Assembly: GCA_016200495.1 (NCBI GenBank)
Contig: JACQES010000051.1
Coordinates: forward strand, 1-53,996
Direction: 5' to 3'
DNA from: Gemmatimonadota bacterium
GTDB taxonomy: Bacteria > Gemmatimonadota > Gemmatimonadetes > Gemmatimonadales > Gemmatimonadaceae
DNA length: 53,996 bases
Below are positions 26,447 through 46,479 of the stretch, piece after piece. The position numbers were made by a program, and so were the translations under genes. Below the pieces are notes generated by a model. It made no database searches. It saw only the letters and a list, made by a program, of their open reading frames with translations, and was not told the DNA's origin. Position 1 is the first letter of the stretch; each line of letters starts with the position of its first letter.

Positions 26447-29400
26447 ATGACCGCCCCACGCGCCGCCCTCGATCCGCTCGCTCCCGCCCTCGCCCTCGCT
26501 CGGCGCCGTTGGCGCCTGCGCCACCTCGCGGCGGGCGCGGCCATCACGGTGGGTGCCGCGGCGCTCGTCGTGCTGCTCGCGTCGTGGGCGCTCGAGTCGC
26601 TGCACTTCACGGCCGAGGCTGTCACCACGGCGCGCGTGATTCTCGCGGTGGTCACGCTGGTCGTGGCGGGGCGCTTCGTCGCGTGGCCGCTGCTGCGCCG
26701 CCTCTCCGACGAGCGGCTTGCGCTCTACCTCGAGGAAAAGGTCCCCGCCCTCGAGGGCGCGGTGCTCACCGCGGTCGCCATGCGCGCGCCCGCGGCGGCG
26801 CAGGCGCATTCGCCGCTGCTCGCGCGCGGGCTCGAGACCGACGCGGTGCGCCGCCTCGCGCGCCAGGCGGAGGTGCCCGCACTCGAGCGCCCGGGCACGC
26901 AGCGCGCGCTGATGCTGCTCGCGGCCGTCACCGGGGTCGCCGCGCTGCTGTTCACCACGGGCCCCGCGTGGGTGCGCACGGGCGCGTCGCTTCTGCTTGC
27001 GCCCTGGCGCCACGACCTCGCGGCCCCCGTGTACGCGATCGGCCTCGAGCCGCGCACCGTCACGGTGGCGCGCGGCGCCGACGTGCAGCTCAACGCGCAG
27101 CTCGCGGGCTTCCAGAGCGAACTCGTGGAACTCGTCGTGCGGCGCGGCGCGCGGGCCGAGTGGGAGCGGGTGCCCATGGGCGCCGGCACGGCCGCGGGGA
27201 GCTACAGCGCGCGGCTCTTCGACATGAACGAGGACGCCGACTTCTTCGTCGAGGCCTCCGGCGTGCGCTCGGCCACCGGCCACGTATCGGTGCGCGACCT
27301 CCCGGGTGTCGCGCGCGTCGGCGTCGAACTGCGCTTCCCCGCGTACATGAACCTGCCCGCGGAGGTCACCGACGACGGCGGCGACATCGCCGCTCCCGAG
27401 GGCACCACCGCGATCCTCCGCGTCCACGCGACGCGCGCGGTCAAGGGCGGCGTGCTCCGCTTCGACGGCGGCGCCGTGGTGCCGCTCGCGCGCGCCGACG
27501 ACTCCACGCTCACCGCGCGGCTCGTGGTGCAGCACGACGGCTTCTACCGCGTCGAGCTCGAGGCCGAGGACGGCACGCGGGTGCCCGGCACCGTCGAGTA
27601 CGTCGTGGACGCGCTTGACGACGCGCCGCCCGTGGTGCGCATCCGGAAGCCGGGGCGCGACCTCCGCCCCACCAACGTGGACGAGATCCTCGTCGAGGCC
27701 GAGGCGACCGACGACTACGGCGTGAGCGCGCTCGAACTCGTCTATCGCGTGAACGGCGGGCCCGAGAAGACGATCGCCCTGGGCGGCGACGGCAAGCCCG
27801 TGGCGCACGCGCGCGACCTGGTCGCGTCGCACACGCTCTTCCTCGAGGAGATGGCGCTCACCGCCGGCGACGTGGTGAGCTACTACGCGCGCGCGCGCGA
27901 CAACGACGCGATCCACGGCCCCAAGGTCGGCGCGAGCGACATCCAGTTCCTCACGATCCGGCCGTTCAACCGCGAGTACAAGCAGAACCAGCAGGGCGGC
28001 GGCGGGGGCGGCGGCGACGACGTGAACCCCGGCACCCTCGTGCAGCGGCAGCGCGACATCGTGGCCGGCACCTTCAAGGTCGAGCGCGATCGCGCCCGCA
28101 CCGCGGCCGCGACGCTCCGCACCGACGTGAGTACGCTCCACCTCGCGCAGGGGCGCCTGCGCGAGGACCTGAGCGACGTGCTCACGCGCGTGAGCCGGCC
28201 CGCCGTGCAGGCCGCCGACTCGGGGTTCCGCGTGCTCGCCGAGGTGCTCCCCAAGGCCCGCGACGAGATGAAGGCCGCCGAGGAGCTCCTCGTGCAGGGC
28301 AAGACCAGCGACGCGCTCGCCCCCGAACAGCGCGCCCTCCAGTGGCTCGAGAAGGCCGAGGCGGCCTTCCGCGAAGTGCAGATCAGCATGCAGCAGCAGT
28401 CACAGGGCGGGGGCGGCAACGCGGCGGCGAAGGCCTCCGACCTGGCCGACCTCCTCGAGCTCGAGACCGACAAGCTCCGCAACCAGTACCAGGAGGTCGA
28501 GCGCAGTCGCGAGCAGCAGGGCGCCAAGGCCATGGACGAGCTGGCCGAGCGACTCAAGCGCCTCGCCGCGCGCCAGCAGCAGGAACTCTCGCGCCAGCGC
28601 GAGCGCGCGCAGCGCGGCAACGGCGGTGGCGGCGCGGGCGGCGGCAACCAGCGCCAGCTGGCCGACGAGACGGAGAAGGCCGCGCGCGAGCTCGAGCGCC
28701 TCGCGCGCGAGCAGCAGTCGACCGAGATGGCCGAGACGGCACGCCAGCTGCGCGACGCGGCCGAACAGATGCGCCGCTCCGCTGCGGGCGGTCCGGGTGC
28801 CGCCCAGGCCGCCGCCGACCGCCTCGCGAACGCGCAGAAGGCGCTCGCCGACAAGCGCGACGCGCAGGCGAGCGACCAGCTGGGCGAGGCCGCGAAGCGC
28901 GCCGCCTCGCTCGCGCAGGAGGAGCGCGACGTGGCCGACGACGTCGCCAGGCTCGGGCCGCCGAGCGCCGAGCGCGCCGAGCGCCAGCGCCGCATCGACG
29001 AGCGGAAGCAGGGGATGACCGACCGCGTCGAGGGGCTCGCCAAGGACCTCGATCGCCTCGCGCGCGAGAACCGGCGCACGCAGCCGGGTGCCGCGCGCGC
29101 GGCCGAAGGCGCCGCGAGCGCCATCCGCGACGCGCGCATCGCCGACAAGATCCGCTTCTCGCGCCAGGCGCTGCGCACCGCGAGCCCCGAGTACGCGAAG
29201 AACATCGAGGCGATGATCCAGGGCGACCTCGACTCGCTTGCGCAGCGCGTCGCCAACGCGTCGCGTTCGGCGGCGGCGGGGCGCGACACGTCGCAGCGTG
29301 CGTCGCGCGCACTCGCGCAGGCGCGCGACCTGGTGCGCGGGATGTCGTCGCTCGAGGAGCGGCTCCGCGACCGGCAGGAGCGCGGACAGGGCGGCGCGGC

Positions 29401-30088
29401 GGGGCAGCAAGGTCAGGGGAGCGCGCAGGGGCAGGGCCAGCAAGGGCAGGGCAACGCGCAGGGGCAGGCCGGCCAGGGCAGCGCGCAGGGGCAGAGGAGT
29501 CAGGGCGCCGGGCAGGGCCAGCAAGGGCAGGGCGGTGGACAAGGCCAACAGGGCCAAGGCCAGCAAGGCCAGGGCGCGCAGGGCCAAGGCCAGGGCCAGG
29601 GCGGTGGCCAGGGCCGCGGCCAGCAGCAGGGCCAGCAACAGGCCCAGGGCGGAGGCGGCCAGGGCGGCCGCGGCAGCAACACCCCCGGCGGCTCGGGCCA
29701 AGGCGGACCCAGCGGCATGGGCGGCGGCCAGGCCAACGTCACCGCCGAGGAAATGCGCCAGCTCGCACGCGAGCTCCGGGCCGATCGTGACGCCGCGCAG
29801 GAACTCCGGCGTTCGGCCGCCGCCGCTGGCGCGAACACGGCCGAACTCGACAAGCTGATCCAGCGCATGGCGCAGCTCGACGCCGGCAAGATCCTCGGCG
29901 ATCCGGCCGCGCTCGAGCAGATGCGGACGGCGGTCGTGGAGGACCTCAAGGCGTGGGAGTTCGCCCTGCGGCGGCAGCTCGGTGCCACCGAAACCGCCGG
30001 TCCCGCCCTCGGCGGCAGCGACAACGTGCCGCCCGCCTACCGCGAACTCGTGAGCGAGTACTTCAAGTCGCTGGCGAAGAAGCCCTGA
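26447..30088 (+). CDS. DUF4175-like long membrane/coiled-coil protein
   Basis: N-terminal TM pairs, VVRIRKPGRDLRPTNVDEILVEAEATDDYGVSALELVYRVNGG, long Q/R/E-rich coiled coil, G/Q-rich tail. Confidence 0.75.
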   Translation: MTAPRAALDPLAPALALARRRWRLRHLAAGAAITVGAAALVVLLASWALESLHFTAEAVTTARVILAVVTLVVAGRFVAWPLLRRLSDERLALYLEEKVPALEGAVLTAVAMRAPAAAQAHSPLLARGLETDAVRRLARQAEVPALERPGTQRALMLLAAVTGVAALLFTTGPAWVRTGASLLLAPWRHDLAAPVYAIGLEPRTVTVARGADVQLNAQLAGFQSELVELVVRRGARAEWERVPMGAGTAAGSYSARLFDMNEDADFFVEASGVRSATGHVSVRDLPGVARVGVELRFPAYMNLPAEVTDDGGDIAAPEGTTAILRVHATRAVKGGVLRFDGGAVVPLARADDSTLTARLVVQHDGFYRVELEAEDGTRVPGTVEYVVDALDDAPPVVRIRKPGRDLRPTNVDEILVEAEATDDYGVSALELVYRVNGGPEKTIALGGDGKPVAHARDLVASHTLFLEEMALTAGDVVSYYARARDNDAIHGPKVGASDIQFLTIRPFNREYKQNQQGGGGGGGDDVNPGTLVQRQRDIVAGTFKVERDRARTAAATLRTDVSTLHLAQGRLREDLSDVLTRVSRPAVQAADSGFRVLAEVLPKARDEMKAAEELLVQGKTSDALAPEQRALQWLEKAEAAFREVQISMQQQSQGGGGNAAAKASDLADLLELETDKLRNQYQEVERSREQQGAKAMDELAERLKRLAARQQQELSRQRERAQRGNGGGGAGGGNQRQLADETEKAARELERLAREQQSTEMAETARQLRDAAEQMRRSAAGGPGAAQAAADRLANAQKALADKRDAQASDQLGEAAKRAASLAQEERDVADDVARLGPPSAERAERQRRIDERKQGMTDRVEGLAKDLDRLARENRRTQPGAARAAEGAASAIRDARIADKIRFSRQALRTASPEYAKNIEAMIQGDLDSLAQRVANASRSAAAGRDTSQRASRALAQARDLVRGMSSLEERLRDRQERGQGGAAGQQGQGSAQGQGQQGQGNAQGQAGQGSAQGQRSQGAGQGQQGQGGGQGQQGQGQQGQGAQGQGQGQGGGQGRGQQQGQQQAQGGGGQGGRGSNTPGGSGQGGPSGMGGGQANVTAEEMRQLARELRADRDAAQELRRSAAAAGANTAELDKLIQRMAQLDAGKILGDPAALEQMRTAVVEDLKAWEFALRRQLGATETAGPALGGSDNVPPAYRELVSEYFKSLAKKP
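29386..29720 (+). repeat. Low-complexity Gly/Gln (GQGQQGQG-type) coding repeat inside the DUF4175-like gene
   Basis: Translated QGGAAGQQGQGSAQGQGQQGQGNAQGQAGQGSAQGQ...; many cagggccagcaagggcag variants. Confidence 0.85.
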
Positions 30089-45234: not shown

Positions 45235-45732
45235 ATGAACGCCAAGGGCTCGTGGACGCGCGAGGGCGTCATCGCCGGCATCATCGGTGCCGCGGTGGTC
45301 GCGATCTGGTTCCTCATCGTCGACCTTGTCGCCGGCCACCCGTTCTACACGCCGGCGCTGCTCGGCAACGCGCTCTTCTCGTTCTTCGGCCCGACGACAG
45401 GCGAGAGCACCACGCTCCACGTCGCGGGCTACACCGTCTTCCACGTCCTCGCCTTCATGGGCATCGGCTTCGTCGCCTCGGCGCTCATCAACGCGTCGCG
45501 CAAGGCGCCGGCGATGCTGGCCGGGCTGCTCATCCTCTTCGTCGCCTTCCAGGTCATCTTCTACGGCGTGACCGAGGTGCTGGCGATGAACGCGCTGCTG
45601 GGCGGGCTCGCGTGGTGGTCGATCGGCGTGGCGAACCTGCTGGCCGCGTTCAGCATGGGGCGCTACCTGTACCGTGAACACCCCGAGCTCAAGGTGACGC
45701 TCGAGCATGCGCTCGCGGGGGCCGAGGCCTGA
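45235..45732 (+). CDS. Four-TM membrane protein, unknown
   Basis: VIAGIIGAAVVAIWFLIVDLV...HVLAFMGIGFVASALI...AGLLILFVAFQVIFYGV...WWSIGVANLLAAFSMG. Confidence 0.78.
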   Translation: MNAKGSWTREGVIAGIIGAAVVAIWFLIVDLVAGHPFYTPALLGNALFSFFGPTTGESTTLHVAGYTVFHVLAFMGIGFVASALINASRKAPAMLAGLLILFVAFQVIFYGVTEVLAMNALLGGLAWWSIGVANLLAAFSMGRYLYREHPELKVTLEHALAGAEA

Positions 45733-45743
45733 GTCGCTTCCGA

Positions 45744-45834
45744 GCGGTGCACCACAGCGGTTCACCACAGCGGTTCGCCGGAGCGGTTCACCACGGCGGT
45801 TCACCACAGCCGTTCACCACGGCGGTTCACCACA
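45744..45834. repeat. Seven tandem copies of a 13-bp unit, gcggttcaccac(a/g)
   Basis: Units at 45744, 45757, 45770, 45783, 45796, 45809 and 45822. Confidence 0.92.
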
Positions 45835-45863
45835 GAGGCACGGGGGCACGGAGAACCGCGAGC

Positions 45864-45895
45864 ACTGCAACGACTGCAACGACTGCAACGACTGC
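45864..45895. repeat. 9-bp tandem repeat actgcaacg, about 3.5 copies
   Basis: actgcaacg at 45864, 45873 and 45882, then actgc. Confidence 0.9.
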
Positions 45896-45945
45896 GGGCT
45901 CGATGCGAAGCGCGAAGGAATCGTGAGAGCGTAGCTCGAAAAGAC

Positions 45946-45982
45946 AGGGGCCCGTTCGCCGAGTCGTGGCGAACGGGCCCCT
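45946..45982. terminator. Strong hairpin between convergent transcription units (probable bidirectional terminator)
   Basis: aggggcccgttcgcc-gagtcgt-ggcgaacgggcccct: perfect 15-bp stem, 7-nt loop; a T-rich tract (gtctttt) follows it on the minus strand. Confidence 0.75.
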
Positions 45983-46046
45983 TCATTCATGTCCTTCTCG
46001 CCGTCCTTCGTGCCTCTGTGCCTCTGTGGTAGAAGATCAGGGACGG

Positions 46047-46106
46047 AGGCTCAGAGACAGAGGCTCAGAGACAGAGGCCCAGAGACAGAGGCCCAGAGAC
46101 AGAGGC
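46047..46106. repeat. 14-bp tandem repeat aggc(t/c)cagagacag, four copies plus partial
   Basis: Units at 46047, 46061, 46075 and 46089. Confidence 0.92.
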
Positions 46107-46119
46107 GCCGGCCAGCCGC

Positions 46120-46479
46120 TCAGCCCGCTCCCAGCCCCAGCCGGATCGCGAGCTTGCCGAACAGGAACATCAACCCGAACAGCGTCCCGATCGCGATCAG
46201 GAGCGGCCCGGTGAAGAGGGCCCGGAACAGCTTGTGGTCGTACTTGAGGTGCATGTAGAACATGACGACGATCGCGAACTTGACCGCGCTCATGATCAGG
46301 AGCGACGGCACGAACAGCTTGCTCGCGACGAACGACGGGATGTAGTAGATCCAGACCTCCACCACCGTGATCGCGGTCAGGACGACCGCCACCTTCCAGT
46401 ACGTGGACCACTGCGGGTGAAAGTGGTCGTCGGCGTGGGCGCCGTGCGCGTCGGCCGCGTGGGCGACTTCGTTGGCCAT
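46120..46479 (-). CDS. ctaF: Cytochrome c oxidase subunit IV (caa3-type)
   Basis: HFHPQWSTYWKVAVVLTAITVVEVWIYYIP...SAVKFAIVVMFYMHLKYDHKLFRALFTGPL; position in oxidase operon. Confidence 0.88.
   Translation of the reverse strand: MANEVAHAADAHGAHADDHFHPQWSTYWKVAVVLTAITVVEVWIYYIPSFVASKLFVPSLLIMSAVKFAIVVMFYMHLKYDHKLFRALFTGPLLIAIGTLFGLMFLFGKLAIRLGLGAG

Follow-up and report, generated by a model that had tools for sequence, protein, structure and literature searches.

Arms of a dispersed intergenic repeat family also enclose the single GxxExxY gene of a Gemmatimonadota genome

Introduction

Short repeats that are dispersed between genes, and that appear to depend on an enzyme encoded elsewhere, are known from the REPIN/RAYT systems (Bertels and Rainey, 2011; PMC3116915). 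The repeat family examined here, named A, was met in an intergenic island within a window of 53,996 nucleotides (the whole stretch of DNA that was analysed) from a bacterium of the Gemmatimonadota, probably a member of the Gemmatimonadaceae, and it resembles those systems in that inverted doublets forming hairpins are spread over intergenic DNA as non-autonomous copies, with one enzyme gene linked to them in each genome or lineage and with repeats private to it. The hairpin doublet of a REPIN is found in A, which has 16 inverted pairs and whose arms pair in the DNA fold of the island copy. A REP sequence, in contrast, is palindromic with a GTAG/CGTC head, whereas the A arms read TTCACCACAGAGGCACGG, each a run of 8-bp units with neither head nor palindrome; the island had been called REP/MITE-like in the original prediction, and membership of A in the REP class fails on arm sequence. 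The linked enzymes also differ, the RAYT being an HUH tyrosine transposase and the protein found here a PD-(D/E)XK protein.

Three further systems invite comparison. MITEs, like A, are non-coding, AT- or GC-rich, of small size and bounded by terminal inverted repeats; they occur in many copies and share with A occupied and empty sites and ends common to a longer coding element; however, the coding element of A carries GxxExxY (PDDEXK_3) and no known transposase, and no target duplication was seen. The 23S rRNA intervening sequences with the S23 protein (PMC4990558) likewise have one small gene between inverted repeats, measure ~430 bp and are suspected to be mobile. They reside in rRNA genes and encode a four-helix-bundle protein (PF05635), whereas the A site lies between protein genes; PF05635 had no match in the genome under study. 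Cyanobacterial STRRs are heptamer short tandem repeats. Heptamer STRRs (for TAACTGA heptamer repeats, see PMC4679880) are similar to A in consisting of short tandem units, dispersed in intergenic DNA and nested, but they form direct arrays of 7-bp units, whereas the units here are of 8 bp (A) or 9 bp (a second family, B), stand in inverted pairs and are linked to GxxExxY.

Results

A composite repeat island fills the gap between two convergent genes

The island (45743–46106) occupies the gap between two genes that are convergent, as predicted, starting 10 bp past the end of the upstream gene and stopping 13 bp short of the end of cox4 (Table 1). Every part named when the locus was first described as a composite of short repeats was found, far above chance: none of 1000 first-order Markov shuffles reached either the arrays or the inverted repeat. 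The copy numbers originally given for the 13-bp and 9-bp arrays (7 and 3.5) agree with those measured; the 14-bp array is there too, with five copies instead of four. Similarly, the imperfect inverted repeat is present and encloses the perfect 15-bp-stem hairpin as described, but its arms are 34 nt long (45829–45862 and 45997–46030, 85% complementary) and not 21 bp. Both the 13-bp and the 14-bp array are located outside the arm pair. As single-stranded DNA, the 210-nt element folds at -70.9 kcal/mol (z = -8.8) with the arms paired. No Rfam family matched the island. The open reading frames across it are short and repeat-derived, in line with the earlier view that no coding explanation is convincing, and a chance origin is ruled out by the shuffles and by the genome-wide family described below.

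Table 1. Positions in the window of the parts of the island and of the two neighbouring genes
Feature	Positions	Strand	Remarks
Upstream neighbour, 165-aa membrane-like protein	45235–45732	+	Context only; order kept in G052 and G025
13-bp tandem array, AGCGGTTCACCAC x7.2	45743–45835	+	TRF score 137; 0/1000 shuffles; terminus GGTTCACCACAG repeated
A-element left arm, TTCACCACAGAGGCACGGGGGCACGGAGAACCGCGAG, 8-bp units	45826–45862	+	Inverted repeat; arm recurs at ~28 genome places
9-bp tandem array, ACTGCAACG x3.6, in the arm-hairpin interval	45864–45895	+	TRF 100% matches; 0/1000 shuffles
GC-rich hairpin, perfect 15-bp stem, 7-nt loop	45946–45982	.	Terminator-like on the - strand, tail GTCTTTTCGA
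A-element right arm (reverse complement ACCACAGAGGCACAGAGGCACGAAGGACGGCGAG)	45997–46030	-	85% complementary to left arm
14-bp tandem array, TCAGAGACAGAGGC x5.0, arm-like units	46037–46106	-	TRF score 112; 0/1000 shuffles
Convergent neighbour, cytochrome c oxidase subunit IV (cox4)	46120–46479	-	Context only; PF03626, 2.2e-12

Because its unit AGCGGTTCACCAC is the terminus GGTTCACCACAG repeated, the 13-bp array seems to be a later extension of the element's end; the same terminus is present in other A copies. One or two extra terminus copies (CACCAC... or ...GTGGTGA), resembling the focal 13-bp array, were also noted just outside the arm at three other loci of this genome (L072:600-700, L079:2480-2560 and L073:4380-4430). 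Among the A copies compared, the 9-bp array ACTGCAACG was found in the focal copy only. The protein of the upstream neighbour had no Pfam match. Elsewhere in the window (29387–29674) lies a long degenerate array of CAGGGC/CAAGGC type, for which TRF gave numerous overlapping rows; it does not appear to be connected with the element.

The arms belong to a family dispersed over the genome

In the assembly of this genome (G000; 4.14 Mb, 431 contigs, 85.7% complete), the A arm occurs at ~28 places, 16 of them inverted pairs. The locus is thus not single-copy, the case that would have refuted the original prediction, and the non-autonomous, MITE-like nature first proposed for it holds, also with regard to the orthologous sites of a sister species, which are often empty (see below). 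The arms (TTCACCACAGAGGCACGGAGGCACGGAG...) are built of 8-bp units and often enclose a GC-rich hairpin, the consensus being TTCACCACAGAGGCACGGAGGCACGGAGGACTGCGAG ... GGGGCCCGNNCGCC-GAGTGAT hairpin (in about half of the copies) ... CTCGCAGTCCTCCGTGCCTCCGTGCCTCTGTGGTGAA. Matches to the hairpin plus right arm of the focal copy were found elsewhere in the genome with E-values down to 2e-14. Where neighbours could be called by the GC3 rule, the copies were intergenic and lay mostly no more than ~60 bp from a gene end, between gene pairs of which 9 were convergent, 9 tandem and 3 divergent. A transposase was encoded by none of the 30 neighbouring genes scanned, and those with a profile match are ordinary genes (transporters, ThiC, SufBD, NifU, GreA etc.).

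Nested and one-armed A copies exist, and several copies are without the hairpin. A second arm family, B (TTCACCACCGAGCACACCGGGCACACCGAG), consists of 9-bp units and is often nested around or inside A, as B[A..A]B at C302, C312 and C332 and as A[B..B]A at C235 and C247. Among the places read, B had no gene of its own. Concentric nesting of B with A was also noted at loci L068, L071, L072, L075, L077, L078, L080 and others of this genome.

Orthologous sites are often empty in a sister species

G052 is a sister species of the same genus, with a cox4 protein 95% identical. The flanks of ~20 A copies were placed in it using one concatenated query, and at least seven gaps were much shorter there than in G000 (C290a, 251 vs 5 bp; C298, 123 vs 16 bp; C247, 459 vs 52 bp; C332, 373 vs 76 bp; C290b, 265 vs 67 bp; C186, 259 vs 89 bp; and C41, 506 vs 62 bp, where the G000 gap also contains other sequence), an occupied/empty polymorphism of the kind that the original prediction had proposed to look for. 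Since the A expansion is private to G000, we infer gain in G000 and not loss in G052; the A query had no match in G052 at E ≤ 0.01 and one weak match in the relative G025. No target duplication was readable at the G000–G052 sites, where the intergenic flanks have diverged to 84–90% identity.

At the focal site itself, G052 has a degenerate single arm and a hairpin; G025 lacks A arms there and carries a hairpin of another kind and a different repeat. Other repeats occupy some of the corresponding gaps of G052: an unrelated palindromic repeat, CGTCCTGAGCGAAGCGAAGGACCTGC, at C42 and C337, and the arm type of G052 itself at C90. A different palindromic repeat, of the type CCTGAGCGAAGCGAAGGACCTGC, was noted in the relatives where G000 has A copies (L207 and L213 in G052; L091, the focal site, in G025), so that several repeat families appear to be attracted by the same gaps.

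The hairpin appears to be part of the element

In an alignment of six hairpin copies the 14-bp stem is conserved, three of its pairs having undergone compensatory changes; none of 500 shuffles reached the covariation score of this set, which is small, its six members having been chosen, oriented and trimmed by hand. Perfect hairpins outside the elements, in 174 kb of loci from G000, were few and different. The island had been seen as an insertion at a host terminator. However, the hairpin seems to accompany the element and is probably not the host's own terminator, because related hairpins recur between arms elsewhere and the empty site C290b of G052 has none; moreover, in G109, a genome of another genus, a GGGGGTCCGC hairpin occurs once in 400 kb, beside arms. 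As the focal hairpin is terminator-like on the - strand, it may plausibly end the cox transcript as a side effect.

A arms stand on both sides of the genome's only GxxExxY gene

Our main point, which was beyond the means of the original prediction, is that the island arms match the ends around the only GxxExxY gene. The assembly contains exactly one PF13366 gene, C311:7667-8011(-), and it stands between A arms, 20–22 bp from each. Its protein scored 137.5 bits with TIGR04256 (cut-off 35) and 134.6 bits with PF13366 (PDDEXK_3; cut-off 22). In a 21-sequence alignment, D61, E71 and K73, the PD-(D/E)XK catalytic residues of this predicted nuclease, occupy conserved columns. G052 (by alignment of the flanks) and G025 (by the shared end of the upstream gene) each have a GxxExxY gene at the corresponding place, in each case with a different arm variant. 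Movement of the gene itself was not seen, because it has one orthologous place in G000, G052 and G025.

To our knowledge, GxxExxY proteins, although annotated in many bacteria of many phyla, have no assigned function. A literature search confined mainly to openly accessible published papers, which is weak evidence of novelty, found no paper tying GxxExxY, PF13366 or TIGR04256 to repeats; the few papers printing such arm strings were all animal studies.

Gene and repeats match privately in three lineages

The same relation was found in three lineages, each with one GxxExxY gene and many gene-less copies, the arm sequence being common to both and having few matches, or none, in the other genomes searched. 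The GxxExxY arm of G052, GAGACACAGARCACACAGAGG, had 19 matches in G052, 0 in G000, 2 in G025 and 4 in G013, and the gene copy has ~70 bp in common with the gene-less copies. G109, a single contig with one GxxExxY gene, has the arm ACGAAGGCACGAAGACACGAAGG, with 41 matches in that genome, mostly as inverted pairs (reversed control, 0); the same arm had no match in G000, G052, G025, G013 or the congener G070, and one in G023. Gene-less copies in G109 follow the same design, with a TTCACCAC end, 8-bp units and, in several, a central GC hairpin. We estimate that chance placement of a single gene inside an arm pair would be rare, since arm pairs cover a few kb of several Mb in these genomes.

As read from its sequence, one longer arm pair of G109 (~1.1 kb) encloses an IS481-like insertion with its own, different ends (L255:1550-2600). 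A CTAG duplication is possible at this insertion.

Inverted arms are frequent at GxxExxY genes of the phylum

Arms were scored as an inverted repeat of score ≥ 30 in 250-bp flanks. They were present at 30 of 56 GxxExxY genes of the phylum, a set made up of the best-scoring family matches plus chosen complete genomes and not a random sample. In comparison, 4/202 random pairs taken from these loci had arms, and 0/30 cox4 genes did. By this measure, roughly half of the GxxExxY genes lacked arms. Among named cases, arms were present on one plasmid each of Bacteroides finegoldii (arms TTCACCACAGAGG), Bernardetia and Gemmatirosa kalamazoonensis (plasmid 1), in an Acidobacteria record and on a viral contig. 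Outside the phylum, the breadth is judged from a small number of plasmid records, the one Acidobacteria record and the one viral contig, the scan of viral contigs having given one relative. The GxxExxY genes of Treponema, Sphingomonas and Persicobacter had no arms.

In a separate observation, genes for PF05635 four-helix-bundle (23S IVP) proteins in genomes of the same bacterial family (L148–L177) had inverted arms at 27/30 loci, often built from 7-bp tandem repeats (7 was the best lag at 21/27), vs 8–9 bp at GxxExxY genes. These PF05635 loci look like a parallel element class.

Discussion

On balance, and judging from sequence comparison, A is probably a REPIN/MITE-like family mobilised by a small PD-(D/E)XK protein, which its full-length member encodes in place of a known transposase. 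The full-length element would measure ~450 bp, with inverted arms of short tandem units around one GxxExxY gene; in the gene-less form the arms would be kept, often with a GC-rich hairpin in place of the gene, and the focal island would be such a copy. The association of gene and arms is itself shown, and from it we infer the mobilising role of GxxExxY, its action on the arms, and the route and intermediate of movement. The arms would pair as a hairpin or cruciform, which the GxxExxY protein would bind or cut, and copies would enter intergenic gaps just past stop codons via host repair. Copies without the gene may depend on the protein acting in trans, in the way proposed for REPINs and RAYTs. 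Slippage would later have added repeats in the focal copy, giving the 13-bp array from the terminus and the 14-bp array from an arm-like unit.

That the elements are moved by some other enzyme of a known kind (RAYT or insertion-sequence transposase), with GxxExxY a passenger captured between the arms or a host protein acting on them for another reason, seems to us unlikely but deserves weight, as REPIN-RAYT systems closely resemble the A family, the GxxExxY gene is fixed in place in three species, and one G109 copy contains an IS481-like element. However, that insertion has its own ends, and no transposase was encoded among the neighbours scanned. Nor would a passenger be expected to show the private match of arms to a single GxxExxY gene in three lineages, or the excess of arms at GxxExxY genes (30/56).

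We find it distinctly improbable that the copies are functional intergenic structures, such as bidirectional terminators or stabilisers of RNA 3' ends, that were spread by recombination and gene conversion and kept by selection with no mobile-element enzyme. Their position in intergenic gaps, often between convergent genes, and a hairpin that is strong, terminator-like on one strand and marked by compensatory changes would fit such a role, but a terminator role might be incidental, the hairpin is absent from several copies, and the nested and one-armed copies, the private arm sequences of each genome and the GxxExxY gene between the same arms would be left unexplained. That the island is a single-locus composite made by slippage alone is hardly credible: it is refuted for the arms and hairpin, which recur at many places in inverted pairs (E-values to 2e-14), and stands for the three arrays only, which do look like slippage products, the 9-bp one being confined to the focal copy.

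Returning to mobilisation by GxxExxY, a wider generalisation can be offered tentatively. GxxExxY may be the one enzyme used by a class of very small transposable elements, each made of one gene and inverted arrays of 8–9-bp units, in which a PD-(D/E)XK nuclease acts on arm hairpins without a classical transposase. The PF05635 genes between inverted 7-bp arrays would then represent a second class in parallel, and the dispersed repeats without a gene that many environmental genomes contain would be REPIN-like derivatives of such elements.

We know of no cause assigned to dispersed repeats of the CACAGAGG type. The private match of GxxExxY flanks to the dispersed repeats of the same genome links the protein family to such repeats. 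Were GxxExxY only a passenger, its association with the arms would still need explaining; if our reading is true, it would account for one class of the dispersed repeats seen across several phyla and would add a stand-alone PD-(D/E)XK protein to the types of enzyme that move DNA.
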